Source of the DNA: a virus
Length of the DNA: 20,315 nt
Direction: 5' to 3' (one strand)
IMG/VR virus record: IMGVR_UViG_3300045581_000804
Span: 1 to 20,315 of that record
How positions within the stretch are numbered: position 1 is the stretch's first letter; each line of letters opens with the position of its first letter. The position numbers were made by a program, and so were the translations under genes. This document shows positions 1 to 20,315 of the stretch, one piece after another. The notes under the pieces were generated by a model. That model was not told where the DNA came from and searched no databases. It saw nothing but the letters and a program-made list of their open reading frames with translations.

Positions 1-304
1 GAACGTCATATAAAGACTCTAGAGCGTAATGCATACCTTTTTCCTCCGCTTGCATAAGAAGATCACTTATTTTTTTCTTGAGAAGCGATTTTGAAATAAC
101 TGCTTCGTCTTCTGCTTCATCAGGAATAGTAACAGTCGGCATTGATGGATTACCTTGTCCTGGTTGTGTTCCAGGTAGACCATAGTATGACGTATTACTT
201 CTAACAGCAGCTCTCTGCCCGTTAGCTATAATTGGAGGATTGGTTATATCGCCCCCGTAACCCTCAGTATATACTTGTTGTAATTCTCTTAAAAAGCTAC
301 TCAT
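1..304 (-). CDS. Unknown late protein, N-terminal part (runs off the window)
   Basis: The reading frame opens at an ATG whose complement is at 302-304 and stays open to the window edge, giving about 101 residues beginning MSSFLRELQQVYTEGYGG. I do not recognise the family. Visible features are a Gly/Pro/Asn/Gln-rich stretch around residues 20-55, an acidic DEAEDEA segment near residue 62, and a basic helical part (SLLKKKISDLLMQAEEKG) after it. A late-type box (AATAAATA, 311-318) ends 6 nt before the ATG, so late expression and a virion or assembly role are likely. The frame is uninterrupted and the start fits the promoter spacing of the other late genes here. Function is not assigned. Confidence 0.75.
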   Translation of the reverse strand, partial: MSSFLRELQQVYTEGYGGDITNPPIIANGQRAAVRSNTSYYGLPGTQPGQGNPSMPTVTIPDEAEDEAVISKSLLKKKISDLLMQAEEKGMHYALESLYDV

Positions 305-331
305 TGATTATATTTATTCTTATATTACAAT
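304..331 (+). promoter_or_regulatory. Sigma70-like promoter, leaderless spacing, for the 337 gene
   Basis: TTGATT at 304-309, a 16-nt spacer, then TACAAT at 326-331. The ATG follows after only 5 nt, so the expected transcription start coincides with the start codon. There is no room for a Shine-Dalgarno. Confidence 0.6.
311..318 (-). promoter_or_regulatory. T4-type late promoter box for the 304(-) gene
   Basis: On the minus strand this reads AATAAATA, 6 of 8 or better against the T4 late consensus TATAAATA. It ends 6 nt before the ATG at 304. It lies inside the sigma70-like promoter of the divergent gene at 337, so the 32-bp gap carries two opposed promoters of different classes. Confidence 0.65.
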
Positions 332-336
332 CATGT

Positions 337-777
337 ATGGAAAAAAAGCACGTTAGTTATGAATATATTTCTTTCATAGTCGATCTATTAGAGCAACGCG
401 TTTGTAAAGACTATGATTTTATTGTAGGTGTAGGTAGAGGAGGTCTTATTCCTGCAACAATGCTAGCATATAAGCTTAAAAAGAAAGTAGTTTGTTTTGG
501 TATTAACACTTACGATGATATGGTTCAAACAGACAAATATGTTATATACCAGCCTATACCTGTACATACTGCTAAGAAGAAGGTGCTCGTGGTGGATGAT
601 ATTTGCGACACAGGTAATACATTTAACATTATAAGAGACATCTATCAAAAAGAAGCTCATTATGAAATAGAATTTGCGTCATTGTTTGTTAGGGATAGTA
701 AATCTCATTTAGTAGATTATTATGGCTTATCAGTATCGGATGGTATCTGGTTATCTTTCCCTTGGGATGATGTTTGA
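337..777 (+). CDS. Purine phosphoribosyltransferase (Gpt/HGPRT-like)
   Basis: A 146-residue type I phosphoribosyltransferase. It would transfer the phosphoribosyl group of PRPP to a purine base, that is, salvage of hypoxanthine, xanthine or guanine. The PRPP-binding motif VLVVDDICDTGNT is at residues 83-95, and an N-terminal GVGRGG loop is at 31-36. The C-terminal WLSFPWD recalls the tryptophan-rich end of bacterial Gpt enzymes, so a xanthine/guanine type is slightly favoured, but the substrate is not certain. I chose ATG 337 over an upstream in-frame start at 232. The extra 35 residues are hydrophobic, lie over the neighbouring gene, and precede the promoter, whose -10 (TACAAT) ends 5 nt before 337. 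An unrelated ATG at 333 is out of frame. The gene is the first of a short cluster leading to nrdB/nrdA, which suits a nucleotide-supply role. Confidence 0.85.
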   Translation: MEKKHVSYEYISFIVDLLEQRVCKDYDFIVGVGRGGLIPATMLAYKLKKKVVCFGINTYDDMVQTDKYVIYQPIPVHTAKKKVLVVDDICDTGNTFNIIRDIYQKEAHYEIEFASLFVRDSKSHLVDYYGLSVSDGIWLSFPWDDV

Positions 778-788
778 TTATAGATTTT

Positions 789-808
789 CATAAATATTAC
801 TATATAAT
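789..808 (+). promoter_or_regulatory. Late box plus TATAAT -10 ahead of the 814 gene
   Basis: CATAAATA at 789-796 matches the late box. A perfect TATAAT at 803-808 ends 5 nt before the ATG at 814. The -35 for the latter is weak (TAGATT, 781-786, 16-nt spacer). The late box would start RNA about 11 nt before the ATG, the TATAAT at the ATG itself, so the gene may be read in two phases. Confidence 0.5.
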
Positions 809-813
809 GAATT

Positions 814-1167
814 ATGGATCGTACGTTGGTTTGTCTCATAACAGGTAGTAAGTATACGTTTGCAAAAGATTATTTTAATAAGAAGGTAGAGGAGTTCGGA
901 GATGTAGATACTCTTAAAAAATACTTCATTACAAGAAGAGTAAAGTCTCTTATTTCACGTGGCTATAGTGTAGAAGAGATACGTAATATTTTAAATGTCA
1001 CAGAGAGCAATCTACCTAGTCCCGACTCTCAAGACGTAAAGGATATTATGAATTTTTATAGTATTAAAAAGGATAATTCTAAACGATCTTCACCGAACTT
1101 TAATAGCCATAATTCTGATCCAGACGTGGCTGTTTTGATAAATAATATAAAGAACTTAAAACTATGA
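814..1167 (+). CDS. Conserved-looking small protein of unknown function
   Basis: A 117-residue soluble protein. The first two-thirds look well folded: a short strand (VCLITG), then helices with a YFNKKVEEFGDVDTLKKYF segment and a basic helix-turn-helix-like stretch VKSLISRGYSVEEIRNILNV (about residues 43-62). The last 50 residues are Ser/Asn/Asp-rich and probably disordered. I do not recognise a family. The 'GYSVEEIRNIL' part could bind nucleic acid or protein, but that is inference only. The start is fixed by the TATAAT box 5 nt upstream. The stop overlaps the start of the next gene (ATGA at 1164-1167), so the two are probably translationally coupled. Confidence 0.8.
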   Translation: MDRTLVCLITGSKYTFAKDYFNKKVEEFGDVDTLKKYFITRRVKSLISRGYSVEEIRNILNVTESNLPSPDSQDVKDIMNFYSIKKDNSKRSSPNFNSHNSDPDVAVLINNIKNLKL

Positions 1168-1388
1168 CTAAAAAATTTATACCACAGATAGGAAGCAATA
1201 ATACAATAAAATTATTTGACGCATCAACAGGACAATTACACAGAGTAATAAGCGTAGACGGTGAGATTATCTCACAGCCTGTATGTGTAGAAAGTGAAAT
1301 GTACGTTACTGTTAAACGTGGTGAACATACATCAGTTAAGTTCTATTCACTACCTAATGGTGGACTGAAAAAAACACAACCTCTTTGA
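1164..1388 (+). CDS. Small beta-rich protein of unknown function
   Basis: A 74-residue protein whose ATG overlaps the preceding stop (ATGA). The composition is that of beta strands separated by turns: NTIKLFDASTGQLHRVISV, then EIISQPVCV, EMYVTVKRG and SVKFYSLPNGG. This resembles a single blade of a WD/YncE-type propeller, but one blade cannot form a propeller, so it may be a small beta-sandwich or an oligomerising unit. A GATAAATA sequence at 1137-1144 inside the previous gene could act as a late promoter with a leader of about 14 nt; this is weak, since such words are frequent in AT-rich DNA. No family recognised. Confidence 0.7.
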   Translation: MTKKFIPQIGSNNTIKLFDASTGQLHRVISVDGEIISQPVCVESEMYVTVKRGEHTSVKFYSLPNGGLKKTQPL

Positions 1389-1408
1389 TAGACATAATCA
1401 TTTTAAAG

Positions 1409-1416
1409 CGTAAATA
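1409..1416 (+). promoter_or_regulatory. Late-type box ahead of nrdB
   Basis: CGTAAATA ends 5 nt before the nrdB ATG. The TAAATA core is intact, but the first two bases differ from TATAAATA. A sigma70 reading (TTGATA at 1385-1390) would need a 20-nt spacer, which is too long, so the late reading is preferred. Confidence 0.5.
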
Positions 1417-1421
1417 ACTTT

Positions 1422-2408
1422 ATGTTGAGGGAGTATAGTATTTTTGAGGAGCAGATTAGTCGTAAGCCAAATAGATATCCATGGACGGAAAAATTTATTG
1501 AGGCTATGCACAATGGGTTTTGGACGGATAAGGAGTTTAGTTTCGAGTCTGATATACAACAGTTCAAAGTCGAGCTAACAGATCAAGAGCGTGACATTAT
1601 TGTTCGTACATTATCTGCTATTGGTCAGATTGAAGTTGCTGTAAAGACGTTTTGGGCTAAGTTAGGTGAGAATTTACCTCACCCATCGCTACAAGATTTA
1701 GGTTATGTTATGGCTAATATTGAAGTTATCCATAATAACGCCTATGAAAGGCTTATTAGTATTTTAGATTTAGAAGATATCTTTGAAGAGAATCTTAAAC
1801 TTGAATGGATTCAAGGTAGAGTTAAATACCTACGTAAATATACTCACAAGTTTTATAAGGATTCTAAAAAGCAATATCTCTATGCATTAATCTTGTTTAC
1901 ATTATTTGTTGAAAACGTTTCCTTGTTTTCGCAGTTCTATGTAATTAACTGGTTTGCTAGATTTAAAAACGTATTAAAAGATACAGATCAGCAAGTTAAA
2001 TATACCCGTAACGAGGAGAACATTCATGCCCTTGTAGGTATTCAACTTATCAATACTATTAGAGAAGAGTTACCTGAATTATTTGACGCAGAGTTAGAGG
2101 AGCGTATTAAGCACGAGGCGGAAGAAGCGTTTAAGGCTGAATCTAAAATCGTTGATTGGATGATTAATGGTATAGATTTACCTGGTTTATCTGCACCTAT
2201 TCTAAAAGAGTTTATTAAAAACAGGATTAATGAGTCTTTGGTAAAAATTAATTTTAAGCCTGTTTTTGAAGTAGATAAAGATCTTTTAGAGTCTACCATG
2301 TGGTTCGAAGAAGAACTTCTTGGTAATAATATGGCTGACTTCTTCCATACAAGGCCGACAGAATATTCCAAGAAAAATCAATCCTTCGGTGAAGACGATC
2401 TATTTTAA
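1422..2408 (+). CDS. nrdB: Ribonucleotide reductase class I, beta (radical) subunit
   Basis: A 328-residue NrdB, which carries the metal cofactor and tyrosyl radical needed by NrdA to reduce ribonucleotides to deoxyribonucleotides. The metal site can be read directly: probable first ligand E71, then E101-x-x-H104 with the radical tyrosine at Y108 (E-V-I-H-N-N-A-Y), E164 in LFVENVSLF, and E199-x-x-H202 in NEENIH. This is the pattern of a normal tyrosyl-radical enzyme, not the Tyr-to-Phe variant. The length is typical of compact phage and bacterial beta subunits (E. coli about 375). The start at 1422 lies 5 nt after a late-type box. It is followed by nrdA after 3 nt, so the two subunits are co-transcribed. 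A late-type promoter for a precursor-supply gene is unusual; in T4 the nrd genes are read before the late phase. Confidence 0.96.
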   Translation: MLREYSIFEEQISRKPNRYPWTEKFIEAMHNGFWTDKEFSFESDIQQFKVELTDQERDIIVRTLSAIGQIEVAVKTFWAKLGENLPHPSLQDLGYVMANIEVIHNNAYERLISILDLEDIFEENLKLEWIQGRVKYLRKYTHKFYKDSKKQYLYALILFTLFVENVSLFSQFYVINWFARFKNVLKDTDQQVKYTRNEENIHALVGIQLINTIREELPELFDAELEERIKHEAEEAFKAESKIVDWMINGIDLPGLSAPILKEFIKNRINESLVKINFKPVFEVDKDLLESTMWFEEELLGNNMADFFHTRPTEYSKKNQSFGEDDLF

Positions 2409-2411
2409 TTT

Positions 2412-4058
2412 ATGCGAGAATATAAGTGGCTTAACAAAGATTCAAGAAAGTTCCTCGAAAGAGGTTATTTAGAACAAGGTGAAACTCCAGAACAACGTAT
2501 ACAAGATATTTCTGATAGAGCTGAAGCTCTATTGAATATTGATGGCTTTTCTGATAAGTTTCATGATTATATGGCGAGAGGTTTTTACTCTCTTTCATCA
2601 CCAATCTGGTCTAATTTCGGTCGTAAGAGAGGTTTACCTATTTCTTGCTTCGGTAGTTTTATACCAGATGATATGGAACAAATCCTTTATAAGGTTGGTG
2701 AGATAGGAACCATGTCTAAAGTAGGAGGAGGTACATCTGCATACTTTGGTGCAGTGAGAGGCAGGGGAGCTCCTATCTCTTCTGGAGGACATGCTACAGG
2801 CGTTCATCATCAGCTTACAGTTTTTGATTCCCTTATTAACTATGTCTCACAAGGTAATGTAAGAAGAGGATCTTTTGCAGCATATCTTCCTATTGATCAT
2901 GCTGATATTGATGAGTTTCTTAAGATTCGTTCAGACGGTAATACCATTCAAGATCTATCTATTGGTGTATGTGTTACTGATGATTGGATGAAATCGATGA
3001 TCGAGGGAGATAAAGAGAAGCGTAGGGTATGGGGATCAGTTATTAAGAAGCGTTTTGAATCTGGTTATCCTTATATCTTCTTTACTGATAACGCTAATAA
3101 TCAAGCTCCTCAGATGTATAAGGATAAGGGTCTTAAAATTAATGCATCTAACTTATGCACAGAGATCTTTCTTTCTACTAGTGAGGATGAATCATTTGTT
3201 TGTGATCTCTCATCTATCAATCTTGAAAAGTGGGATGAGATTGCTGAAACCGACGCAATTGAAACGCTAGTATATTTTCTTGACGCAGTTATGTCTGAGT
3301 TTATCTTAAAGACTGATGGTGTTAAGTTTATGGAAGCTCCGCGTAAGTTCGCCATCAATCAACGCGCATTAGGTGTAGGTGTATTAGGATGGCATTCATT
3401 GCTTCAGGCTAAGCTTATTCCGTTTGAATCAATGGAAGCTAAGATCATTAACAATGATATTTGGAAAACTATTAGAGAGAAAGCCGACAAAGCAACTTAT
3501 GAATTGGCTGAGATTTTTGGTGAGCCTCCTGCTCTTATAGGTTATAGGAGACGTAACTCTACAACTCTTGCAATTGCTCCTACTACCAGTAGTTCATTTA
3601 TATTGGGTCAAGTATCTCCTTCTATCGAACCTCTTAACTCAAATTACTTTGTTAAGGATCTAGCTAAAGGTAGATTTACTTATAAGAATCCTCATCTCGA
3701 AAAACTGCTTAAATTAAAAGGTAAGAATGATCAAGATGTATGGAAAGATATATTAACACATGGAGGATCTGTACAGCACTTAGAATTCTTAACTAGAGAT
3801 GAAAAGGATACGTTTAAAACTTTTGGTGAGATATCACAAAAAGAAATAGTAATACAGGCTGCACAGAGACAGCAATATATTGATCAAGGACAGTCGTTGA
3901 ACCTGATGATTGGACCATCTGTCAAGCCTAAGGAGGTAAATGAGCTTCTTATATATGCCTGGGAACAAGGAATTAAGTCTCTCTATTATCAGCGCTCAGC
4001 TAACCCCTCACAAGAATTAGCTAGATCTATATTAGCATGTTCTTCTTGCGAATCTTAA
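2412..4058 (+). CDS. nrdA: Ribonucleotide reductase class I, alpha (catalytic) subunit, short form
   Basis: A 548-residue NrdA, much shorter than E. coli NrdA (761). It begins where the catalytic domain begins and lacks the N-terminal ATP-cone, so overall-activity inhibition by dATP is probably absent. Catalytic residues are all visible: C79 (PISCFGS) and C264 (FVCDLSS) as the redox pair; N247, thiyl-radical C249 and E251 in NLCTE; the radical-transfer tyrosines Y525-Y526 in SLYYQRS; and the C-terminal thioredoxin/glutaredoxin-accessible pair C543/C546 in the final CSSCES. The start ATG is 3 nt after the nrdB stop with no Shine-Dalgarno in the gap, so translation probably depends on coupling. 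The enzyme would supply dNTPs for phage replication together with NrdB. Confidence 0.96.
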   Translation: MREYKWLNKDSRKFLERGYLEQGETPEQRIQDISDRAEALLNIDGFSDKFHDYMARGFYSLSSPIWSNFGRKRGLPISCFGSFIPDDMEQILYKVGEIGTMSKVGGGTSAYFGAVRGRGAPISSGGHATGVHHQLTVFDSLINYVSQGNVRRGSFAAYLPIDHADIDEFLKIRSDGNTIQDLSIGVCVTDDWMKSMIEGDKEKRRVWGSVIKKRFESGYPYIFFTDNANNQAPQMYKDKGLKINASNLCTEIFLSTSEDESFVCDLSSINLEKWDEIAETDAIETLVYFLDAVMSEFILKTDGVKFMEAPRKFAINQRALGVGVLGWHSLLQAKLIPFESMEAKIINNDIWKTIREKADKATYELAEIFGEPPALIGYRRRNSTTLAIAPTTSSSFILGQVSPSIEPLNSNYFVKDLAKGRFTYKNPHLEKLLKLKGKNDQDVWKDILTHGGSVQHLEFLTRDEKDTFKTFGEISQKEIVIQAAQRQQYIDQGQSLNLMIGPSVKPKEVNELLIYAWEQGIKSLYYQRSANPSQELARSILACSSCES

Positions 4059-4089
4059 TACAACCCCTTACATACTATAACAAGTAAAA

Positions 4090-4113
4090 AACTCCTATCT
4101 TACCCTAGGAGTT
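4090..4113. terminator. Hairpin after nrdA, probable weak terminator
   Basis: AACTCCTA (4090-4097) pairs with TAGGAGTT (4106-4113), an 8-bp stem with an 8-nt loop. It is preceded by an A-run and not followed by a T-run on the plus strand, so it fits a minus-strand terminator better, although no minus-strand gene lies next to it. It touches the late box of the next gene. Confidence 0.45.
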
Positions 4114-4120
4114 CTAAATA
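4113..4120 (+). promoter_or_regulatory. Late-type box for the ClpP-like gene
   Basis: TCTAAATA ends 5 nt before the ATG at 4126. It overlaps the last base of the hairpin arm at 4106-4113. Confidence 0.55.
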
Positions 4121-4125
4121 ATCTT

Positions 4126-4758
4126 ATGAAATGGAAATACCAACTAAGCGAAGAAGAAGAAGCCTTAAAGGCTACTCCACAACAAATCTTTATAACTACT
4201 TCAGGCGGTGAGAACTCGTCAGGAAGTGTAAGAGTTTCAGGTAACACTATTTTCTTTTACTCAGATGTTACTGAGCAAAGCGCTCTAGACCTTAATCAAG
4301 CTTTACATGATCTAGATAACAAATTACATCAACTATCTATCCTAGCAGGAGATGATTTTAAACCTTGTATTAAATTACGTATTAACTCCTACGGAGGTTC
4401 TCTCTTTGCTGGCTTAGCGGTTCTAGATACTATCAGAAATATTAAGAGTGAGATTCATACATATGTTGATGGGTCTGCTGCTTCAGCTGCTACGATTATA
4501 TCGATTGCAGGTTCTAAAAGATTCATCGGTAAGAACTCTATGATGCTTATTCATCAGTTAACTACAGGGGCTTATGGTAAGTTTTCTGAGCTCGAAGATG
4601 ATATGGAGAACAATAAGCGCTTAATGAAGATGATAAAGGACATCTATAAGCAATATACAAAGGTCCCTATGAAAAACATCGATGAGATTCTCAAGCATGA
4701 CTTGTGGTTCGACTCTGCTAAATGCTTAGAGTTTGGGTTAGTAGATGCTATTTTGTAA
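4126..4758 (+). CDS. ClpP-like serine protease
   Basis: A 210-residue member of the ClpP/crotonase-fold peptidases. The likely triad is S120 (VDGSAASAATI), H143 (MMLIHQ) and D192 (LKHDLWF). The substrate-strand glycines are in INSYGGS (87-92), and the typical FGLVD closes the protein near residue 203. ClpP enzymes form barrel-shaped oligomers that cut unfolded peptides, usually with a Clp ATPase; no ATPase is in the window. The family also includes capsid-maturation proteases of lambdoid and other phages. The late-type box 5 nt upstream and the opposed baseplate operon next door favour a late role, either maturation of a virion protein or remodelling of host proteolysis. T4-like phages normally use an unrelated gp21 prohead protease, so the role here is open. 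The gene ends 4 nt from the stop of the convergent spike gene, with no terminator visible between them. Confidence 0.88.
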   Translation: MKWKYQLSEEEEALKATPQQIFITTSGGENSSGSVRVSGNTIFFYSDVTEQSALDLNQALHDLDNKLHQLSILAGDDFKPCIKLRINSYGGSLFAGLAVLDTIRNIKSEIHTYVDGSAASAATIISIAGSKRFIGKNSMMLIHQLTTGAYGKFSELEDDMENNKRLMKMIKDIYKQYTKVPMKNIDEILKHDLWFDSAKCLEFGLVDAIL

Positions 4759-4762
4759 TACT

Positions 4763-5923: not shown

Positions 5924-5943
5924 TTTTTAAAAAAAAGTAAGTG

Positions 5944-6903: not shown

Positions 6904-6909
6904 ACTATC

Positions 6910-7545: not shown

Positions 7546-7553
7546 TATTTAGT
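7546..7553 (-). promoter_or_regulatory. Late-type box for the baseplate operon
   Basis: The minus strand reads ACTAAATA, ending 6 nt before the ATG at 7539. It overlaps the spacing region of the opposed sigma70-like promoter of 7591, so early and late promoters lie back to back in 51 bp. Confidence 0.6.
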
Positions 7554-7555: not shown

Positions 7556-7584
7556 TTGAAATACGTTTGGAACTACTATATAAT
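7556..7584 (+). promoter_or_regulatory. Strong sigma70-like promoter, leaderless spacing, for the TGT/DpdA-like gene
   Basis: TTGAAA at 7556-7561, a 17-nt spacer, then TATAAT at 7579-7584. The ATG at 7591 follows after 6 nt. This is the best sigma70 match in the window and supports ATG 7591 over the in-frame TTG at 7567, which would lie upstream of the -10. Confidence 0.75.
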
Positions 7585-7590: not shown

Positions 7591-8391
7591 ATGTTAGTAT
7601 CCCATGAAACTCCAATTAGTTTTCTCGCTCAATCGAGATCGTATAATGATTATGATTATGCTCTAGTTCATTTGTTTGAAACTCATCCTGAATATTATAA
7701 CTTCTTTAAAAGTAGTCTGCTACAAGGTAGAGAAGTACTTCTTGATAATTCTATCTTTGAACTCAAAGAATCGTTTAACCCTGAAAAGTATGCGGAGTAT
7801 GTACGAGAGTTAAAGCCTACATATTTTATTGTCCCAGATGTTCTAGAGGATGCTACTGCTACAATGGAATCATATACTAGCTTCCGTAGCAAGTATATGG
7901 ATCTTCCTGGTATGTGGATTGGAGCAATTCAAGGTAAAGCATATGATGAAATAGCTGAGTGTTATGCATATATGTCAGCGTTTGCGGATTATATTGCTAT
8001 TTCGTTTGACTTCTCATGGTATCAACAAATAGGTAAATCTCAAAGCTTTGATCCACAACTGCAGAAATTAGAGCGTATGTGTGATGGTCGTCAGAAGCTC
8101 ATTAGAATGCTTATTGCGGATGGCTTGTGGAATCATAATAAGCCACATCATTTGTTAGGAAATTCTCTGCCTCAAGAAATGCTACATTACAGAGACTTAC
8201 CTAGCATAAGATCTGTAGATACTTCAAATCCGGTAATTGCAGGTATCCATAATATTAGATATATTAAAAATTACGGCATGCGTTTGAAGCCATCCGTTAT
8301 GCTGGCAGATCTAATCGATCATGAAGTTACTGGAGAAGAAGCTGATGATATATTATATAATGTAGCAGAATATAAAAAATTATGTTTGTAG
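7591..8391 (+). CDS. tRNA-guanine transglycosylase-like base exchanger (DpdA-like)
   Basis: A 266-residue protein that I read as a compact TIM barrel of the tRNA-guanine transglycosylase (TGT) superfamily, which swaps guanine for a 7-deazaguanine base. Motifs in order are LLDNSIFE (50-57), PDVLED (82-87), GAIQG (111-115, cf. TGT GIVQG), a strand-rich segment DYIAISFDF (133-141), HHLLGN (186-191, cf. YLMGVG) and SVDTSNP (208-214). D52 or D83 and D210 are candidate acid/base and nucleophile. The zinc cysteines of tRNA TGTs are not seen (only C124, C164 and C265), and it is shorter than bacterial TGT (about 375). Phage DpdA proteins of this kind act on DNA. Having QueF three genes downstream makes a DNA 7-deazaguanine role much more likely. 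The family call rests on motif reading, not on a search. Confidence 0.62.
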   Translation: MLVSHETPISFLAQSRSYNDYDYALVHLFETHPEYYNFFKSSLLQGREVLLDNSIFELKESFNPEKYAEYVRELKPTYFIVPDVLEDATATMESYTSFRSKYMDLPGMWIGAIQGKAYDEIAECYAYMSAFADYIAISFDFSWYQQIGKSQSFDPQLQKLERMCDGRQKLIRMLIADGLWNHNKPHHLLGNSLPQEMLHYRDLPSIRSVDTSNPVIAGIHNIRYIKNYGMRLKPSVMLADLIDHEVTGEEADDILYNVAEYKKLCL

Positions 8392-8399
8392 TTAGTTGA

Positions 8400-8413
8400 T
8401 CTACTGCAGTAGA
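8400..8413. repeat. 14-bp perfect palindrome upstream of a late box
   Basis: TCTACTGCAGTAGA is its own reverse complement. It ends 1 bp before the late box of the homing endonuclease gene. It could be an operator or a symmetric protein site; as RNA it has no loop. It may also be chance. Confidence 0.5.
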
Positions 8414-8414
8414 G

Positions 8415-8422
8415 AATAAATA
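8415..8422 (+). promoter_or_regulatory. Late-type box for the first GIY-YIG gene
   Basis: AATAAATA ends 5 nt before the ATG at 8428. It places a late-expressed homing endonuclease inside a cluster otherwise driven by sigma70-like promoters. Confidence 0.6.
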
Positions 8423-8427
8423 TAAGA

Positions 8428-9180
8428 ATGATATATGCCTATAGGACAATTAATATTATTAATGGAAATTATTATTTTGGTATACATAAATCTGTAACCG
8501 GAAATATTGATAATTATATTGGCTGCGGTATTAGACGTCAGAGTGATGCTAGGCTTAATAATAGGTTTCATAATGCTGTAAGAAAATATGGTTACGAGAA
8601 TTTTAAAGTTACTGTTATTATGTTTTTTTCGTGCTATGAAGACGCCTTATCATGGGAAAGAGAGTTTTTAACAAAAGAGGTTGTAGCTGATTCTCGATGC
8701 TATAATTCTAAGCTAGGCGGTAAGGGTGGTGGTTATATATGGAGTGACGAGAGGAAAAAGTATCATAAAGAAAATAATACCTATAAAAAAAGCGATGATA
8801 TGAAGAACAAACTTAGACAATCGGCTATTAATCGCTTTAGTAAGGAGTGCGGTACATTTCAGGGTAAAAAACATACGATCGAAACAAAAAAACGCTTATC
8901 TGAATCGCGTAAAGGAGTAATTAGTAAGAATAAAAATAAGAAATTAAATCTGACAGAGGGTCAGAGAATTTTAAAGAGGGATCTTTTTTTAAAAAATGCA
9001 CATAGCCGGGCAGTGGAGGTAAATAGAAAATTTAGTATTGAGGTGGAAGAAGAGATTAAAAGTAGGTACAGTGGTGCTAGAGGTGAGAAAACAAGTTTAG
9101 CTAAAGAATATAACTGCTCTATATCTCTAATAACTAAATTGGTAGGTAAAAGCTTTAAGCATAAAAAGTATGAAAGTTGA
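8428..9180 (+). CDS. GIY-YIG homing endonuclease with NUMOD3-type DNA-binding part
   Basis: A 250-residue free-standing homing endonuclease of the GIY-YIG (Seg-like) family, which cuts target DNA so that its own gene is copied into the break. The nuclease core is residues 1-100: divergent GIY and YIG strands (IYAYRT and NYYFGIHKS), an Arg helix around R47-R52 (RFHNAVRKYGYENF), the metal-binding Glu at E77 or E79 (SWEREF), and the closing CYNSKLGGKGGG. Residues 135-165 (FQGKKHTIETKKRLSESRKG) match the NUMOD3 minor-groove helix motif. The Lys-rich C-terminus with SLAKEYNCSISLITKLVGKS reads as a helix-turn-helix. Its last 11 nt overlap the start of the formyltransferase gene, and it separates that gene from the TGT/DpdA-like gene, so it looks like an insertion into the modification cluster. 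Confidence 0.88.
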   Translation: MIYAYRTINIINGNYYFGIHKSVTGNIDNYIGCGIRRQSDARLNNRFHNAVRKYGYENFKVTVIMFFSCYEDALSWEREFLTKEVVADSRCYNSKLGGKGGGYIWSDERKKYHKENNTYKKSDDMKNKLRQSAINRFSKECGTFQGKKHTIETKKRLSESRKGVISKNKNKKLNLTEGQRILKRDLFLKNAHSRAVEVNRKFSIEVEEEIKSRYSGARGEKTSLAKEYNCSISLITKLVGKSFKHKKYES

Positions 9181-9751
9181 TCTTAATAAATTAAAATGGG
9201 CTGCACTATTTTCGCAGACGGGATCAGAAATATGTAACCTATCGGAAAAGATAGGTACATATCCTAATCTTGTAATATCTGATAATGTCGATATTAATAA
9301 TTCTTTAGACAGTAGAATAGAACTTAATTGTAAAAGAATACTTTGGAGAAAATATAAAGGATTAACTAAAGAAGAGAAGGTATTATATTATACTAGACAC
9401 TTAATTGGATATGATGTTATAACTCTTCATGGATGGCTTAACATCGTACCAGCTGAAGTATGTGATGCTCTTAGCATATATAACGGACACCCCGGTTTAA
9501 TTAATTATTACCCAGACTTAAAGGGAAAAGATCCACAGGTGAGAGCGTGGGGAGACATTAAGAGATACGATGTTCTCGGCAGTGTTGTACATAAGGTAAC
9601 TCCAGGTGTGGATGAAGGTCCGATAATTTGCTACAGTAAGAAATCTATAATCGGTATAGACAGTCTCGATAAAGTATTTGATACTCTCAAAGAGACATCT
9701 TTGGATTCATGGGTTGATTTTTTTAATAATAAACGTTATAATATAGTATGA
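9170..9751 (+). CDS. Formyltransferase-fold enzyme (PurN/Fmt family)
   Basis: A 193-residue enzyme with the catalytic signature of N10-formyltetrahydrofolate-dependent formyltransferases: N105-x-H107 in YNGHPGLINYYPD (cf. NxHPSLLP) and D148 in VTPGVDEGPII (cf. GVDxGPI). The N-terminal strand KWAALFSQTGSE (9-20) resembles the PurN nucleotide-binding loop. It is close to PurN (about 212 aa) in size, but the sequence around the substrate pocket differs. Acting as PurN (GAR formylation) is possible, since T4-like cyanophages carry purN. Its place between a DpdA-like gene and queF instead suggests formylation of the primary amine of preQ1. It overlaps the upstream endonuclease gene by 11 nt; only a weak -10-like CATAAA lies ahead (9160-9165). 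Fold is secure, substrate is inference. Confidence 0.83.
   Translation: MKVDLNKLKWAALFSQTGSEICNLSEKIGTYPNLVISDNVDINNSLDSRIELNCKRILWRKYKGLTKEEKVLYYTRHLIGYDVITLHGWLNIVPAEVCDALSIYNGHPGLINYYPDLKGKDPQVRAWGDIKRYDVLGSVVHKVTPGVDEGPIICYSKKSIIGIDSLDKVFDTLKETSLDSWVDFFNNKRYNIV
9714..9742 (+). promoter_or_regulatory. Sigma70-like promoter, leaderless spacing, for the P-loop kinase gene
   Basis: TTGATT at 9714-9719, a 17-nt spacer, then TATAAT at 9737-9742, with the ATG at 9748 after 5 nt. It sits inside the end of the formyltransferase gene, which itself overlaps the ATG (ATGA). Confidence 0.65.
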
Positions 9752-10299
9752 TAATTAGCTTTTCAGGTGCGCAATCTACGGGTAAAAGTACTCTATTAAG
9801 TGAGTTTCAGAAGAAGGTTCCTGAATGGGATTATATACCTGAGGTTACGAGGTTAGTTAAAAGAGAGTATGATCTTCCTATCAATGAGGATGGTAATGAT
9901 CTAACTCAATTTATGATTATGGGTGAGCATTTGCGTAATGCATATGCAAAGAGAGATAAGGCTGTAGTATTAGATAGGTGCTCGTTAGATGGTCTTGTTT
10001 ATACTCATTGGCTTTGTGACAAGGAGAAAGTATCGATGAATGCTTTTTTGTATGCAAGATATGTCTTTGAAAATACTATTAACAAATATGATTTAATTTT
10101 CTATACTTCGCCTGAAGATGTTCCTGTAGTAGATGATGGAGAAAGAAGTATTAATGTTGAATTTCGTAATGAGATAATTGATACTTTTGAAAGGTTTATG
10201 AAATCAGATGAGGTACCGTCTTATAAGATAGTAAGGGTGAAGGGTACTGTAGAAGAGCGTATGGAGCAGATATTTGGCGCTCTAAGTATAGGTATGTAG
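9748..10299 (+). CDS. P-loop kinase/NTPase of the AAA_28 (NadR-like) type
   Basis: A 183-residue P-loop protein. Walker A is GAQSTGKST (7-15). A second acidic motif, VVLDRCSLDGLVY (73-85), supplies the Walker B/kinase aspartate. DLIFYTSPEDVPVVDDGERS (about 115-134) is the strand-plus-loop that carries the specificity and lid region in NadR-type ribosylnicotinamide kinases. The family phosphorylates nucleosides or small metabolites. The substrate here is unknown. NAD salvage is one option; given the neighbours, a kinase for a modified nucleoside or nucleotide is another, with no direct support. The start overlaps the upstream stop (ATGA), yet the gene has its own strong promoter, so both linked and independent expression are expected. 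The P-loop call is firm. Confidence 0.87.
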   Translation: MIISFSGAQSTGKSTLLSEFQKKVPEWDYIPEVTRLVKREYDLPINEDGNDLTQFMIMGEHLRNAYAKRDKAVVLDRCSLDGLVYTHWLCDKEKVSMNAFLYARYVFENTINKYDLIFYTSPEDVPVVDDGERSINVEFRNEIIDTFERFMKSDEVPSYKIVRVKGTVEERMEQIFGALSIGM

Positions 10300-10313
10300 A
10301 CTTAAAAATAATC

Positions 10314-10341
10314 TTGAAAAATACAACAGTTAGATTATAAT
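10314..10341 (+). promoter_or_regulatory. Sigma70-like promoter, leaderless spacing, for queF
   Basis: TTGAAA at 10314-10319, a 16-nt spacer, then TATAAT at 10336-10341, with the ATG at 10347 after 5 nt. The intergenic space has no Shine-Dalgarno. Confidence 0.72.
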
Positions 10342-10346
10342 AAATT

Positions 10347-11288
10347 ATGGCATCGAAAACTAAATTAGATAATACAGCAATCGGAAGGCATTTGGGTAAA
10401 TCCTCTGCTTATATTTCATCCTATGATCCTACGCTTCTCGTAAAAGAGCCTAGGCAGTCAAATAGAACGCATCTAGATATTAGAGAAGGTGATCTACCTT
10501 TTGTAGGATTTGATACCTGGAATGGTTACGAGGTTACTGGTCTTACAAATAATGGCTTGCCCGTTACAGGAATTTGTAAGTTTGTTTACCCCTGTAATAG
10601 CAAATATATTGTAGAATCTAAATCAGTTAAGCTATACTTTAACTCATTTAGTATGACTAAGCTTGGTAATACTGCAGAAGAGGTTCTTAAAGAAATTGAG
10701 AATCGTGCTGTAAAAGATCTTTCTGAATTGGTTGAGTCTAAAGTAAAAGTAACTATGCTTTCTAACTACGAAGCTCTTTGCGATAAAAGAAATGCGATGG
10801 ACGAATGGAATCATGATCGTAGCGTAGGTGATTCATATATTACTCTAGAAGATGAGTTTCCGGTTGTTGTATCTGATTTAGTATTTAAACACTATACTGA
10901 GACTCCAGAGGTTTTGAGAGTTATTGATTCCGTTACAGGTTGCGAAAAGTATCATAGCTCTTTACTTAGATCTCTATGTAGGATTACTTCACAGCCTGAC
11001 TCAGGTGATGTATATATTCATATTGAAGGTAATAAGACTATTGATCCTATTTCTCTTCTTGAGTATGTAGTTTCGTTTAGAGATGAGAATCACTTCCATG
11101 AAGAGATTTGCGAGGCTATCTATAAAAGACTTTGGGACGTACTCAAACCTACTAAGCTTGTTGTTAAGTGTCTCTATGCAAGACGTGGTGGGTGGGATAT
11201 TAACCCAGAGAGAGCTTCTGATAGAGAATTACTTCACAGCAACCTTAAGAATTCAACTTCGCTTCATATCAAGATGCCTAGACAATAA
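10347..11288 (+). CDS. queF: 7-cyano-7-deazaguanine reductase QueF, bimodular
   Basis: A 313-residue bimodular QueF (E. coli 282 aa), the NADPH-dependent T-fold enzyme that reduces the nitrile of preQ0 to the aminomethyl group of preQ1. The N-terminal module has LGKSSAYISSYDPTLL, PFVGFDTWNGYEVTGL (51-66) and the QueF signature ESKSVKLYFNSF (90-101). The C-terminal module has the covalent-catalysis Cys C211 (LCRITSQPDSG) with D218, the substrate-contact VSFRDENHFHE (242-252, H251/E252), and the end YARRGGWDINPER. All known active-site residues appear intact. In bacteria QueF feeds queuosine in tRNA. In a phage next to a TGT/DpdA-like gene it more likely makes preQ1 for insertion into phage DNA. 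No QueC/D/E or FolE is in this window, so preQ0 must come from the host or from phage genes elsewhere. Followed by a strong terminator. Confidence 0.94.
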   Translation: MASKTKLDNTAIGRHLGKSSAYISSYDPTLLVKEPRQSNRTHLDIREGDLPFVGFDTWNGYEVTGLTNNGLPVTGICKFVYPCNSKYIVESKSVKLYFNSFSMTKLGNTAEEVLKEIENRAVKDLSELVESKVKVTMLSNYEALCDKRNAMDEWNHDRSVGDSYITLEDEFPVVVSDLVFKHYTETPEVLRVIDSVTGCEKYHSSLLRSLCRITSQPDSGDVYIHIEGNKTIDPISLLEYVVSFRDENHFHEEICEAIYKRLWDVLKPTKLVVKCLYARRGGWDINPERASDRELLHSNLKNSTSLHIKMPRQ

Positions 11289-11352: not shown

Positions 11353-11360
11353 CATAAATA
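11353..11360 (+). promoter_or_regulatory. Late-type box for the 11366 gene
   Basis: CATAAATA ends 5 nt before ATG 11366. An ATG at 11361 directly after the box is out of frame. The in-frame TTG at 11342 lies upstream of the box and within the terminator's T-run, so it is rejected. Confidence 0.65.
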
Positions 11361-11715: not shown

Positions 11716-11723
11716 TATAAATA
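11716..11723 (+). promoter_or_regulatory. Consensus late promoter for the coiled-coil fibre gene
   Basis: Perfect TATAAATA, ending 6 nt before the ATG at 11730. Only this one and the capsid-gene box match all eight bases. Confidence 0.8.
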
Positions 11724-14333: not shown

Positions 14334-14339
14334 AGGAGG
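14334..14339 (+). promoter_or_regulatory. Consensus Shine-Dalgarno ahead of the GC-rich fibre gene
   Basis: AGGAGG, 13 nt before ATG 14353, longer than the usual 5-9 nt. It lies inside a possible 11-codon ORF (14314-14349) that ends 3 nt before the fibre ATG. A TATAAT at 14308-14313 has no good -35. This is the only full AGGAGG I see in front of a gene in the window. Confidence 0.55.
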
Positions 14340-14352
14340 GATAAATTAAGAC

Positions 14353-17184: not shown

Positions 17185-17202
17185 AACTAAGATATAATCT
17201 GT

Positions 17203-17216
17203 TTTATCATGATAAA
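17203..17216. repeat. 14-bp perfect palindrome, with an orphan late-type box
   Basis: TTTATCATGATAAA is its own reverse complement. A GATAAATA (17211-17218, plus strand) starts within it, but no start codon follows at the usual 5-6 nt, so if active this box would give an antisense RNA against 17301-17702. Confidence 0.4.
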
Positions 17217-17217
17217 T

Positions 17218-17257
17218 AAAAAAAAAGCTGCAGTTATTAATATTAATAGCTGCAGCT
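17218..17257 (-). terminator. Intrinsic terminator of the 17702-17301 gene
   Basis: Read on the minus strand: AGCTGCAG plus TATTA arms (17244-17257 with 17226-17239), a 4-nt loop and one A-C mismatch, followed by nine T (17226-17218). On the plus strand the same hairpin pairs fully with one G-U but lacks a T-run, so it mainly serves the minus-strand gene and may also slow fibre transcription. Confidence 0.8.
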
Positions 17258-17266
17258 AATTATTGG

Positions 17267-17304
17267 AATTATAAAATTATAAAATTATAAAATTATAAAA
17301 TTAT
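17267..17304. repeat. Tandem 8-bp repeat, about 4.75 copies
   Basis: AATTATAA is repeated four times exactly (17267-17298), then AATTAT. It runs into the stop codon of the minus-strand gene (17301-17303). On the minus strand it contains TATAAT several times at 8-bp intervals. Probably slippage-prone AT repeat. Confidence 0.85.
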
Positions 17305-17702
17305 CTATAACCTAAGTAAACTTCTCTTACAATATCTGGATAGGTTGTATTAAAGTCATTACTTGTGAGAGTTTGTTTTGTGGTAGTAGCACCAGTCACT
17401 ACAGTAAAGAGAGATGAAGAATCATCTGTGCATACAACAGCCATTGTTCTACCTTGATAAGCAGTATCTACTCTTAGAGTAGTGCCAGAGAAAGCTGATA
17501 AAGTTGCAAAGACACCGTTACCGCTAGCAGGTGATGTAAGGGTGTTAAAAACAATTCCTTTTACTTGTTTACCATTTACGGTTCCTACTGTTAAGAGTTC
17601 TACTGTCTTATATGTTCCTGCACTCGATAGAGAGTAGTTTAAGTTTAGCGGAGCGAGACCGAACGCTGATAGTACTTGATTGTTAAAGCTTGTTACTGGC
17701 AT
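17301..17702 (-). CDS. Small virion-type protein of unknown function
   Basis: A 133-residue beta-rich protein starting MPVTSFNNQVLSAFGLAPLN. It has alternating strands and Thr/Ser/Gly turns (TYKTVELLTVGTVNGKQVKG, GTTLRVDTAYQGRTMAVVC, SLFTVVTGATTTKQTLTS) and an aromatic end, REVYLGYR. The style resembles small decoration or fibre-associated proteins like that at 11366, though I see no clear sequence match between them. A late box 5 nt from the ATG supports late expression. It is transcribed toward the GC-rich fibre gene, with a terminator between. The stop overlaps an AT tandem repeat, so the C-terminus could vary by slippage between strains. No family recognised. Confidence 0.78.
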   Translation of the reverse strand: MPVTSFNNQVLSAFGLAPLNLNYSLSSAGTYKTVELLTVGTVNGKQVKGIVFNTLTSPASGNGVFATLSAFSGTTLRVDTAYQGRTMAVVCTDDSSSLFTVVTGATTTKQTLTSNDFNTTYPDIVREVYLGYR

Positions 17703-17707
17703 ATTAT

Positions 17708-17715
17708 TATTTATT
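17708..17715 (-). promoter_or_regulatory. Late-type box for the 17702(-) gene
   Basis: The minus strand reads AATAAATA, ending 5 nt before the ATG at 17702. Confidence 0.65.
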
Positions 17716-17765
17716 CATTTGCACCTAATTTTACCTAAAAAATAATAGAGTAATACCCCGGCTTG

Positions 17766-17773
17766 ACTAAATA
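17766..17773 (+). promoter_or_regulatory. Late-type box for the second GIY-YIG gene
   Basis: ACTAAATA ends 5 nt before the ATG at 17779. No Shine-Dalgarno in the gap. Confidence 0.6.
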
Positions 17774-17778
17774 TTTAC

Positions 17779-18558
17779 ATGAGGAATAAAACTTACGAGC
17801 TTTATATAACGAAAAATAACGTTACAGGGTGCGTGTATGGAGGAAAACATAGCTATATAAATAAAAGAGGTATATATTTAGGCTCAGGATTTAGACTTAA
17901 AAGAGCGTTTAAAAAATATGGAAAGGAAAATTTTTCAGTTCGTGTACTTCGTTTACAGATAACTAACGAAGAGGATATGAATATTAAAGAAATTAGACTT
18001 ATACGTTTATTGAGATATATATTTAAAGATAAATGTTATAATATACATAAAGGTGGTAGTGGAGGAGATTATTATAAATATCTTACTCCTGAGGAGAGAC
18101 TTGAAGTAAATCTACGTATTAGTAAGAGTAAAAAGTTACAGTATAGTAGAGGTGAAACTGAGGCTCAAAAAATAGGCTATAAAAAGCAATCAACCACTTT
18201 AAAAGAAAAAAATAAAAATGATTTAGAGTATCGTGAACGCATGCTAGACGTATGGCGTAATAAAGGTAGAGCTCTATCTGATAGGATAAGGACTCGCGGA
18301 TTAACAGTTAGCGAGATAGCGCGTAATAAAAATAACGCTATAAAACAGACACGACTTTACGATATATTAATATCGTATCCGTCAGGTAATAGTGAAACTA
18401 TTACTATAAATTCAAAGAAATTTAAAACAATTTATAAAACAGACGATAGTATGTTTTCTACCTTACGTAAAACTGGTATGTACATAGTAAACATACGACG
18501 ATCAACTACCAAACATCCTTTTCCTTTAGGCACTAAACTTACAATTTTATATACATAG
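17779..18558 (+). CDS. GIY-YIG homing endonuclease next to the capsid gene
   Basis: A 259-residue endonuclease with a GIY-YIG core in residues 1-100: YELYITKNNVTGCVYGGKHS (first strands; GIY and YIG are divergent), YLGSGFRLKRAFKKYGKENF (the Arg helix), the metal-binding Glu at about E71 (NIKEIRLI), and CYNIHKGGSGG closing the domain. The remaining part is basic. I see no NUMOD3 repeat; TVSEIARNKNNAIKQTRLYDI and SMFSTLRKTGMYIVNIRR may form a helix-turn-helix for DNA recognition. It differs in sequence from the endonuclease at 8428 apart from the core, so the two are probably separate arrivals. It lies convergent to the major capsid gene, a place where T4-like phages often carry such genes. A double hairpin separates them. 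Confidence 0.83.
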   Translation: MRNKTYELYITKNNVTGCVYGGKHSYINKRGIYLGSGFRLKRAFKKYGKENFSVRVLRLQITNEEDMNIKEIRLIRLLRYIFKDKCYNIHKGGSGGDYYKYLTPEERLEVNLRISKSKKLQYSRGETEAQKIGYKKQSTTLKEKNKNDLEYRERMLDVWRNKGRALSDRIRTRGLTVSEIARNKNNAIKQTRLYDILISYPSGNSETITINSKKFKTIYKTDDSMFSTLRKTGMYIVNIRRSTTKHPFPLGTKLTILYT

Positions 18559-18567
18559 TAAAAGAGG

Positions 18568-18599
18568 AGCCCTAAGAGCTCTTCGGCGCTCTTAGGGCT
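18568..18599. terminator. Strong hairpin between convergent endonuclease and capsid genes
   Basis: AGCCCTAAGAGC (18568-18579) pairs with GCTCTTAGGGCT (18588-18599), a perfect 12-bp stem. The loop TCTTCGGC contains a C(UUCG)G core. A T-rich tract follows on the plus strand after about 10 nt, and CTTTT on the minus strand, so it can serve both directions. Confidence 0.75.
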
Positions 18600-18609
18600 A
18601 GATTTGTCG

Positions 18610-18635
18610 TTTTTAATACTAATCAGTATTAAAAA
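18610..18635. terminator. Second hairpin, overlapping the capsid stop codon
   Basis: TTTTTAATACT (18610-18620) and AGTATTAAAAA (18625-18635) form an 11-bp perfect stem with a 4-nt loop, flanked by T5 on either strand. It covers the stop codon of the capsid gene (18629-18631) and is probably the first of two stacked terminators for that transcript. Confidence 0.65.
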
Positions 18636-20077
18636 TATACGTTCTGCGTAGCTGGCGAGAACGCGGTACCTAAGCCCTGAACAATAACAACGTGGTAGTA
18701 AAGATTTGCACCAAAGATATTATCAACAACGCCGTAACGTGTAAGCAAGCCTACGCGTGGAGCGAAGTCGTTAGGACCAATGGTTCTTTGTACCATGATA
18801 GGAATGTATGGGCAGTAGATGATACCTGTATCATAGAACTCCGTGCCTTTATAGCCAAGGAGAGCGTACTCGATACCAGATGTTTGGCCTGAATAATTCA
18901 GATTGCCATAAACGCCGGTATTTTGTACTTCTGTACGTGTATCACGATATACCGAGAATCTTCCACCAACAGAACCTACCTTAGCAACACCAACTGGTTG
19001 TGTTGAAACGTCGCCTTGAACAGGTACCCACTGGAATTCAGGGAGCATTTCAAGGATCGCGCAAACACGTGGTGTAGCAACGATGAAGTTAGCAGCACCG
19101 CGTCTGTTACGAACTGCGATTCTGTTTGCTTCAATGATAAGTTTTTGATAGAAGTCTCTGTTTCTCTCAACGAGCCATCTGCCGTCAGCAGATGCTGGGG
19201 ACCAGAATGAGTAACCTGCACCGAAACCTGCGTTAAGGGCGGATTGAATCATTCTAACGATCATTTCACGGTCGATCTCAGCTTGGATCTCATACGACAT
19301 TGCGTTTGTGATCTCAGCATCGATATCGATACCATTCATGTTCTTAAGGTCTTGTTCCAATTCAACGGACCAGCGAGCGCCAAGTCTACGAGTACCAGCT
19401 TCAACAGCTGTTTTCTCAAACTTAACTTCTACTTGTGGAATGTTGCCAGTGATTTCAAACGCAGACAAGATTTGAGCAACGCCCTGATCTTGTTGTGCGA
19501 AAGTCCAAGCACCAGTAGCACCAGAAAGTCTTTGTGAAGACGAACCAGTGAAACGAGTGTCAAGGAATTGGTAGCCGAGCTCTGTGTTGCCAGTATAACC
19601 AGCATTGACACCAGGAATGTTGCCAGCACCACCAGGGGTAGTAGCATCAAAACCAGAACCAAGACCAGTAGAATTGTACTGATAACGGAGAGCGAAAGCG
19701 AGACCAACTGGACCGGACATAGGCTGAACGCCTACGATCTCGTTGGAGATAAGCTCAGGAAAGGTACGACGAATCATCGGAATGAGGATCTTAGGAAGAC
19801 GTGCATCACCAGGAGCGTAGTTGTCACCGGAGTTTACAACACCATTAACTGGGCTGTATTGACCACCTGCGTTACCACCAAACGCGCTGTTTGTGCTTGA
19901 CTCTTGAACACACCATTGTTCTTGGTTCTCAAGAAGAATAGCGGTGTTTAAGCGTTGGTTTTCGTCTTTAATTTCCTTAACCGAATCGGAAGTATAGTTA
20001 AGAACTGGTGCCCACTTCTCAAGAAGTGCTTCAGCTCTTGCTCTATCTACGAATGCTTGTGTCGGACGAATTTTCAT
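18629..20077 (-). CDS. Major capsid protein, T4 gp23-like
   Basis: A 482-residue HK97-fold major capsid protein of the T4 gp23 type. Recognisable parts are the N-terminal delta region with LLEKWAPVLNY (18-28), SVKEIKDENQRLNTAILLEN (32-51), FGGNAGGQYSPVNG (67-80), and the P-domain entry RLPKILIPMIRRTFPELISN followed by EIVGVQPMSGPVGLAFALRY. A match to the T4 prohead cleavage rule (L/I-x-E) is LLE at 48-50, so N-terminal processing is possible, although the exact site is not sure. G+C is high for this genome (29 of 60 in line 19621-19680), consistent with codon choice for very high expression. Unlike its neighbours it has a leader of about 55 nt with a Shine-Dalgarno-like AAAGGA. It would form the icosahedral shell together with the scaffold encoded upstream. 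Confidence 0.95.
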   Translation of the reverse strand: MKIRPTQAFVDRARAEALLEKWAPVLNYTSDSVKEIKDENQRLNTAILLENQEQWCVQESSTNSAFGGNAGGQYSPVNGVVNSGDNYAPGDARLPKILIPMIRRTFPELISNEIVGVQPMSGPVGLAFALRYQYNSTGLGSGFDATTPGGAGNIPGVNAGYTGNTELGYQFLDTRFTGSSSQRLSGATGAWTFAQQDQGVAQILSAFEITGNIPQVEVKFEKTAVEAGTRRLGARWSVELEQDLKNMNGIDIDAEITNAMSYEIQAEIDREMIVRMIQSALNAGFGAGYSFWSPASADGRWLVERNRDFYQKLIIEANRIAVRNRRGAANFIVATPRVCAILEMLPEFQWVPVQGDVSTQPVGVAKVGSVGGRFSVYRDTRTEVQNTGVYGNLNYSGQTSGIEYALLGYKGTEFYDTGIIYCPYIPIMVQRTIGPNDFAPRVGLLTRYGVVDNIFGANLYYHVVIVQGLGTAFSPATQNVYF

Positions 20078-20088
20078 ATTGCTTTTTT

Positions 20089-20094
20089 TCCTTT
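20089..20094 (-). promoter_or_regulatory. Shine-Dalgarno-like site of the capsid gene
   Basis: The minus strand reads AAAGGA, 11 nt before the ATG, in a purine-rich run. It is one of only two Shine-Dalgarno-like sites I can see ahead of a gene in the window. Confidence 0.5.
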
Positions 20095-20105
20095 CAAAAA
20101 AACTC

Positions 20106-20120
20106 AGGTCGTATAGACCT
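20106..20120 (-). promoter_or_regulatory. Small stem-loop in the capsid mRNA leader
   Basis: AGGTC (20120-20116) pairs with GACCT (20110-20106) with a 5-nt loop TATAC, then GAG and seven T. It is weak as a terminator (5 bp), but it sits in the leader 11 nt upstream of the AAAGGA, so it may stabilise the mRNA 5' end or affect translation. Confidence 0.45.
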
Positions 20121-20137
20121 CATTGTTCAGGGTGAAA

Positions 20138-20315
20138 TTATTTATACTTCTGTAATTCTGTTATATAAGGGTTATTATCAGATGTTTTTGTAGCAGGTGT
20201 CTGCTTAACAACTGGAGCATCAGCCTTTACTTCTCTCTTGGTAAAAGCTTGTTCTTTAATAATACTTATTCTCTCTTGTTCTTTTTTATCAAACAATCTT
20301 AAGGTATAATCAAAG
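20138..20315 (-). CDS. C-terminal part of the gene upstream of the capsid gene (possible scaffold)
   Basis: An open frame entering from the window edge and ending at TAA (20140-20138), giving about 58 residues that start FDYTLRLFDKKEQERISIIK. It then turns into a Lys/Ala/Thr/Pro-rich linker and ends NPYITELQKYK. It is charged and helical at first, then disordered. In T4-like phages the gene just upstream of gene 23 is usually the prohead scaffold (gp22), and a charged, helical, low-complexity C-terminus fits. The sequence alone does not prove it. Its stop codon is built from the late box of the capsid gene (TATAAATAA). Confidence 0.7.
   Translation of the reverse strand, partial: FDYTLRLFDKKEQERISIIKEQAFTKREVKADAPVVKQTPATKTSDNNPYITELQKYK
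20139..20146 (-). promoter_or_regulatory. Consensus late promoter of the major capsid gene
   Basis: The minus strand reads a perfect TATAAATA. The box ends 61 nt before the capsid ATG, giving a leader of about 55 nt, unlike the 5-6 nt spacing of the other late genes here. It lies in the last codons of the upstream gene. Confidence 0.8.

Follow-up and report, generated by a model that had tools for sequence, protein, structure and literature searches.

Transcription units in an uncultured lineage of the T4 superfamily are probably built for mRNAs that are leaderless or nearly so, with 0–2 nt before the start codon; from the sequence evidence, we place the probability of this reading at about 0.85. 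The lineage is large and comprises uncultured T4 relatives from lakes and the sea. It is represented here by a 20-kb fragment, an IMG/VR viral record of 20,315 bases (IMGVR_UViG_3300045581_000804, hereafter the window), in which hexamers of two classes, TAAATA and TATAAT, end 5–6 nt before the ATG of most genes. The window encodes a gp23-type major capsid protein, NrdB and NrdA, a ClpP-type protease, tail genes, two homing-endonuclease-like open reading frames (ORFs) and a 7-deazaguanine cassette.

In the proposed model, early and metabolic genes would be transcribed from host sigma70-type promoters (a TTGACA-like hexamer, N16–17 and TATAAT), with the −10 box typically ending 6 nt before the ATG, and late genes from gp55-type boxes (NATAAATA, no −35), with the last base typically 5 nt before the ATG. 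The usual start site would be the A of the AUG, and operon-internal genes would be read on the same transcripts as the first gene of their unit. The major capsid gene, together with a GC-rich fibre gene in this window, would be translated from leaders bearing a Shine–Dalgarno (SD) sequence, the capsid leader also containing a conserved hairpin RNA.

Box-to-start spacing in the window and its relatives

Inspection of the 60 nt upstream of each gene revealed that 14 of the 21 window genes carry a box ending 5–6 nt before the ATG, nine of them TAAATA and five TATAAT or TACAAT. All 14 boxes reported in the initial annotation were recovered at their positions and spacings, as listed below (genes are named by the position of the start codon, with a minus sign for the minus strand).

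311–316, minus strand: late box TAAATA, 6 nt before the ATG of 304-
1411–1416, plus strand: late box TAAATA, 5 nt before the NrdB ATG (1422)
4115–4120, plus strand: late box TAAATA, 5 nt before the ATG of the ClpP-like protease (4126)
7546–7551, minus strand: late box TAAATA, 6 nt before the ATG of 7539- (tail protein)
8417–8422, plus strand: late box TAAATA, 5 nt before the ATG of the GIY-YIG ORF (8428)
11355–11360, plus strand: late box TAAATA, 5 nt before the ATG of 11366
11718–11723, plus strand: late box TAAATA within TATAAATA (11716–11723), 6 nt before the ATG of 11730
17708–17713, minus strand: late box TAAATA, 5 nt before the ATG of 17702-
17768–17773, plus strand: late box TAAATA, 5 nt before the ATG of the homing-endonuclease-like ORF (17779)
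304–331, plus strand: sigma70-type promoter, TTGATT (304–309), N16, TACAAT (326–331), 5 nt before the ATG of 337
803–808, plus strand: −10 box TATAAT with no clear −35, 5 nt before the ATG of 814
7556–7584, plus strand: sigma70-type promoter, TTGAAA (7556–7561), N17, TATAAT (7579–7584), 6 nt before the DpdA ATG (7591)
9714–9742, plus strand: sigma70-type promoter, TTGATT (9714–9719), N17, TATAAT (9737–9742), 5 nt before the ATG of 9748
10314–10341, plus strand: sigma70-type promoter, TTGAAA (10314–10319), N16, TATAAT (10336–10341), 5 nt before the QueF ATG (10347)

Seven window genes had no such box. Two of them (1164 and 9170) overlap the preceding gene, three (2412, 6903- and 5923-) lie 3–20 nt after a preceding same-strand gene, and the others are the fibre gene (14353) and the capsid gene (20077-), both with an SD. 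The box near 20146 is not of the leaderless type, as this TAAATA lies 61 nt from the capsid ATG in an SD-bearing leader. A leaderless architecture had been claimed genome-wide; this wording is too broad and is contradicted by the operon-internal, fibre and capsid genes (7/21 boxless). The remainder of the claim is supported: in a T4-like phage, promoters of two classes are placed so as to give leaderless transcripts, commonly at the first genes of transcription units.

The low GC content, 0.30–0.37 across most of the window, would favour chance matches in AT-rich sequence as the origin of the boxes. However, in 20,000 dinucleotide-preserving shuffles of the window upstream regions, 0.32 genes carried a box on average and at most 4 did so, none of the shuffles reaching the 14 observed, and other ATGs in the window had a box at 5–6 nt in only 2 of 576 cases. 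Moreover, no 5–6 nt peak was found in the AT-rich controls CP21 (GC 0.27) and Mosig (0.33), nor in T4, P-HM2, immuto and two SD-using T4-like contigs. Chance was therefore rejected as vanishingly improbable. The earlier statement that AT-richness alone hardly explains the spacing was supported by fixed-distance searches against shuffled or reversed controls, both in the window and in its relatives.

The assignment of the window to the T4 superfamily was based on its capsid gene:

18629–20077, minus strand: gp23-type major capsid protein gene (Pfam Gp23, E = 4e-87; PHROG 138)

The encoded protein was 33–36% identical to T4-type phage records (among the 40 matches listed) but 65–85% identical to IMG/VR loci (best 80 loci), indicating that the window belongs to a large uncultured lineage. 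Relatives were collected with DpdA, capsid and NrdA queries (31, 80 and 80 loci, respectively). Gene calls followed a simple ORF rule, starting at the first ATG and choosing ORFs greedily by length, with no gene finder, and overlapping loci were de-duplicated by identical upstream keys; the remaining loci are related, not independent. In a gp23 tree built by a quick method, the 89 in-group rows all fell to one side of the outgroup; the outgroup branches of this tree were very long and met, and in-group branching alone was used.

The 197 sequences contained 2,005 distinct ORFs with a length of at least 100 aa (start taken as the first ATG). Among them, TAAATA ended 5, 6 and 7 nt before the ATG in 198, 78 and 60 cases, against a background of about 4 per position, and the TATAAT spacing had its mode at 6 nt (53 cases). 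In the near-complete records G001, G002, G005 and G004, TAAATA was found at 4–7 nt in 43/223, 64/208, 48/267 and 48/281 ORFs, respectively. The corresponding figure for the T4-like, gp55-bearing control G019 was 0/247, with an SD in 141/247. Distant NrdA loci, fetched likewise and serving as a built-in control, nearly lacked the box and had abundant SD sequences. In addition, TAAATAN{5,6}ATG was counted over whole records, with the reversed pattern as control. It exceeded the control in 11/11 group records (55 v 15, 81 v 17, 65 v 8, 60 v 11, 47 v 20, 37 v 4, 37 v 7, 44 v 6, 15 v 4, 25 v 9 and, the weakest of the eleven, 23 v 13) and in 0/4 contigs outside the group (4 v 9, 1 v 5, 1 v 8 and 5 v 5). 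The counts were 13 v 12 in immuto and 15 v 17 in CP21.

Since the first ATG of each ORF served as its start in these group analyses, the true start codons might lie downstream, with the boxes serving leadered mRNAs of shorter proteins. This is extremely unlikely, because N-termini from the first ATG are conserved, for example among eight DpdA relatives (a set picked by N-terminal pattern), and because orthologues aligned from residue 1–6 keep box and ATG in register.

Promoter character of the boxes and predicted start sites

The distribution of the boxes among genes was consistent with promoters. Among 1,046 group genes, TAAATA lay at 5–7 nt in only 3/175 genes that overlap the preceding gene. 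The frequency was 46/165 for gaps of 0–14 nt, 41/91 for 15–29 nt, 47/93 for 30–59 nt and 73/292 for at least 60 nt, and reached 83/230 for genes at a strand change. The rarity before overlapping genes points to a promoter, which is needed only at unit starts, whereas a translation signal is needed everywhere.

The two classes also resembled two known promoter types. Upstream of TATAAT, a TTGACA-like hexamer (at least 4/6 matches) was found with a spacer of 16 bp in 31/68, 17 bp in 12/68 and 18 bp in 0/68 cases, in keeping with sigma70 promoters, which have a −35 at 16–18 bp from the −10. TAAATA boxes showed no sharp −35 spacer (at most 27/293) and corresponded to the gp55-type late promoters of T4 (TATAAATA-like box, no −35), with A at a frequency of 0.67 directly before TAAATA and a weak T at −13. 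T4 late promoters are described as having no −35 (PMC2988020). The T4-style placement, with the box about 20–30 nt before the ATG and an SD, was not the pattern of the group. At the level of the group, gp55 is encoded by the phages themselves, with homologues in 6/6 group records >180 kb and 5/8 shorter ones (11/14 overall). Homologues were also present in both G017 and G019, outside the group; thus, the sigma factor is shared and the box-to-ATG distance differs.

Furthermore, box class was kept in orthologues, as evaluated with 4–8 nt windows, a looser −10 pattern and alignments starting at residue 1–6. The late class was retained in 11/11 orthologues of 17702-, 13/13 of 11366, 4/4 in-register orthologues of 7539- (box at 6–8 nt) and 8/11 of 11730. 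The −10 class was retained in 11/11 orthologues of the phosphoribosyltransferase (337), 31/40 of DpdA (7591), 23/43 of the thymidylate-kinase-like gene (9748) and 19/38 of QueF (10347), and the sigma70-type promoter of DpdA was visible in most of the eight relatives' sequences. Taken together, the boxes behave as promoters, and the late box would be read by gp55.

Alternatively, TAAATA and TATAAT near the ATG could form a translation signal, an AT-rich and unstructured start context, with no promoter function. The hosts probably use SD sequences little, since these are about as frequent in most group records as in shuffled sequence, which would favour such a signal. The scarcity of boxes before overlapping operon genes, the correctly spaced −35 for one box type only and the initiator distance, which is fixed relative to the box and not to the ATG, led us to drop this explanation as very unlikely. 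Moreover, the two box types are sorted by gene class and kept in orthologues, and the Flavobacterium phage immuto, which also lacks SD sequences, has no peak.

With the boxes read as promoters, start sites can be predicted from their geometry. The −10 boxes of sigma70 promoters span −12 to −7. Late boxes of T4 span −13 to −6 (PMC1524935), so that a late box ending 5 nt before the ATG would place +1 on the A, and the one-nucleotide shift between the late mode (5 nt) and the TATAAT mode (6 nt) is the one expected from the two geometries. Combined with T4 late geometry, the observed spacings predict leaders of 0–2 nt. At a gap of 5 nt, the base before the A (box+5) was a pyrimidine in 171/178 genes, compared with 65% in boxless genes, and A occupied box+6 in 35/66 genes with a gap of 6 nt and 37/49 with a gap of 7 nt. 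This result suggested that the start site follows the box and that genes with gaps of 6–7 nt have leaders of 1–2 nt. The proposal that the first RNA base is the A of the ATG thus fits the usual spacing but not some late starts, for which these short leaders are predicted. GTG starts numbered 15 at a gap of 5 nt, compared with 0–3 at the other gaps tested.

The boxed genes also had the signature of leaderless genes, a −10-type signal ending 5–7 nt before the start codon without an SD, the latter occurring in 17/392 of them (10.9 in shuffled sequence). In the divergent pair 304-/337, the start codons enclose a back-to-back late box and a full sigma70 promoter and are merely 32 bp apart, leaving no room for a leader. 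These sequence data strongly support the prediction that many messages begin at or within two bases of the start codon and would be translated as leaderless mRNAs.

Departures from the rule and genes with leaders

Several observations weigh against this reading or limit its reach. TAAATAN{5,6}ATG was mildly above the reversed control in P-HM2 (10 v 4), T4 (12 v 8) and Mosig (18 v 13). Among candidates for the first gene of a unit, the box was present at 5–7 nt in 48/125, 61/88, 62/157 and 29/50, about a third to two thirds. The late box was found in just 2/25 NrdB and 4/15 ClpP in-register orthologues, and neither box was found in 10/15 orthologues of gene 814. No gp55 was found in the window, a 20-kb fragment. 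SD sequences were enriched in boxless genes (106/654 vs. 49.3 shuffled), indicating that leadered translation is used as well. Finally, the box-to-ATG peak was broader, 5–12 nt, in the basal records G006 and G014 (subgroup of L108/L114; L269–L283), implying short leaders there; this subgroup may be an intermediate.

The poor retention before NrdB and ClpP, together with the tight packing of many genes on one strand, would also suit a situation in which the boxes are real promoters, yet most functional mRNA comes from upstream read-through and leaderless mRNAs are minor. Divergent first genes, with start codons 32–76 bp apart, leave little space for upstream leadered promoters, and the SD frequency in boxed genes is near background; we consider predominant read-through unlikely.

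Two genes of the window have clear leaders:

20078–20139, minus strand: capsid gene leader with hairpin RNA element and SD (AAAGGA); covariance-model match at 20066–20139, 38 bits
14353–17184, plus strand: fibre gene, 943 aa, GC-rich, with an AGGAGG SD before the ATG; second leadered exception

The capsid exception extended to the relatives. The late box was found at 4–8 nt in 0/68 in-register capsid orthologues, one of which has a −10-like hexamer, and TAAATA was found at 4–7 nt in 1/73 capsid leaders under another start rule; an SD was present in 55/73 leaders, compared with 17 in shuffled sequence. The leader sets comprised 81, 32, 40, 50 or 73 sequences depending on the analysis, as start-finding filters differed and duplicates were removed. 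MAFFT/RNAalifold revealed no structure in 32 divergent capsid leaders, and closer leaders alone could be aligned. A seed alignment of 10 close leaders (A3) showed two hairpins with paired changes, and a covariance model searched against 84 sources gave 36 matches with E no higher than 1, of which 24 had E <0.005. In an alignment of 26 sequences (A5; 25 chosen from the 84 sources and one from G001), which was fitted to the covariance model and is biased towards it, 93.8% of cells pair (slid controls, 20–48%) and changes on both sides occur in 55 cells (shuffled mean, 17.1), with further pair types not above shuffles. The window match to the model was moderate. Of the scanned capsid loci, 36 lacked the end-motif pattern, that of the window among them, indicating that the leader RNA is variable. 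Rfam gave no match in the window, capsid leader included, at gathering score, and the covariance model had no match in control segments of T4, P-HM2, Mosig, immuto and CP21, nor in G019. The inferred function of the capsid leader RNA is that of an element for translation or stability of the capsid mRNA, which is probably more abundant than any other late message. A wider hypothesis, that the whole lineage is leaderless for both promoter classes, with the capsid mRNA as the main leadered one and its two-hairpin RNA and SD switching or balancing translation modes during infection, is tentative and, in our estimate, rather doubtful.

The fibre gene has a GC content of about 0.47–0.56, compared with about 0.34 around it, and had no Pfam or PHROG match. 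It looks like a recent import that retained SD-led translation.

Candidate translation factors and hosts were also searched for. Phage IF3 (IF3_C) was found in 0/12 records and ribosomal protein S21 in 2/14 (G005:C1:39344-39463 and G006:C1:70324-70455), so no general phage initiation factor was found; WhiB was found in 0/14 records. The relative G001 encodes a one-piece transfer-messenger RNA with the tag AANKVVDFVLPQAEPQFALAA (L208 15777–16193, minus strand), the pattern of which had no match in a bacterial genome collection. The capsid alignment A1 gave 113 pattern matches against genome contigs, with no relative among them.

The stretch 7591–11288 of the window (DpdA, formyltransferase, thymidylate-kinase-like protein and QueF) constitutes a 7-deazaguanine DNA modification cassette, within which the GIY-YIG ORF (8428–9180) lies. 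The gene order is the same in immuto (L257 14090–17016).

Significance and comparison with known systems

T4 serves as the reference phage for translation from SD sequences and for late transcription driven by gp55. A broad aquatic lineage with gp55 but without leaders would offer a natural experiment, in which the same promoter machinery is combined with opposite modes of translation initiation, and the basal short-leader group adds to it. The commitment of a phage to leaderless initiation, the ribosome state needed and the exemption of the capsid mRNA thereby become open to testing, and gene-start annotation in these phages would improve.

In phage lambda, cI transcribed from PRM is a leaderless mRNA; there a single gene is leaderless, whereas in this lineage leaderless starts would be a genome design. 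Leaderless initiation in lambda is mentioned in a study that called leaderless genes in bacteria, among them Deinococcus-Thermus and Actinobacteria, from a −10-like signal located some 10 bp ahead of the start codon (PMC3160421). Those bacterial genes have the signal in the same position, and in the present lineage two phage promoter classes share the design.

The Thermus phages phiYS40 and P23-45 are among the closest known systems, and we know of no gp55/TATAAATA system in Thermus phages. Most middle and late transcripts of phiYS40 are reported to be leaderless (PMC3594737), which corrects the initial view that such mRNAs are known only singly in phages, and phage transcripts are elsewhere described as often leaderless (PMC5312081). 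Likened by description only, phiYS40 is a large lytic phage whose middle and late transcripts are mostly leaderless, as predicted here; it differs in its Thermus host, where leaderless genes are common, whereas the capsid gene of this lineage keeps a structured SD leader. Among the papers searched, none combined leaderless transcripts with TATAAATA or leaderless phage late promoters with T4-like phages, and one mentioned leaderless transcripts along with gp23. Thus, leaderless phages are already known, and within these searches two-class leaderless use across a T4-superfamily lineage seems to be unreported.

A further counterpart is T4 itself. Its late promoters (gp55, TATAAATA) share with those of the group the TAAATA core, an A-rich preceding position, the lack of a −35 and a gp55 homologue. 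In the T4 segment, however, the box lies mostly 27–28 nt from the ATG (7/18 boxes) and an SD precedes 33/45 genes, whereas in the group the box typically lies 5 nt from the ATG with no SD.

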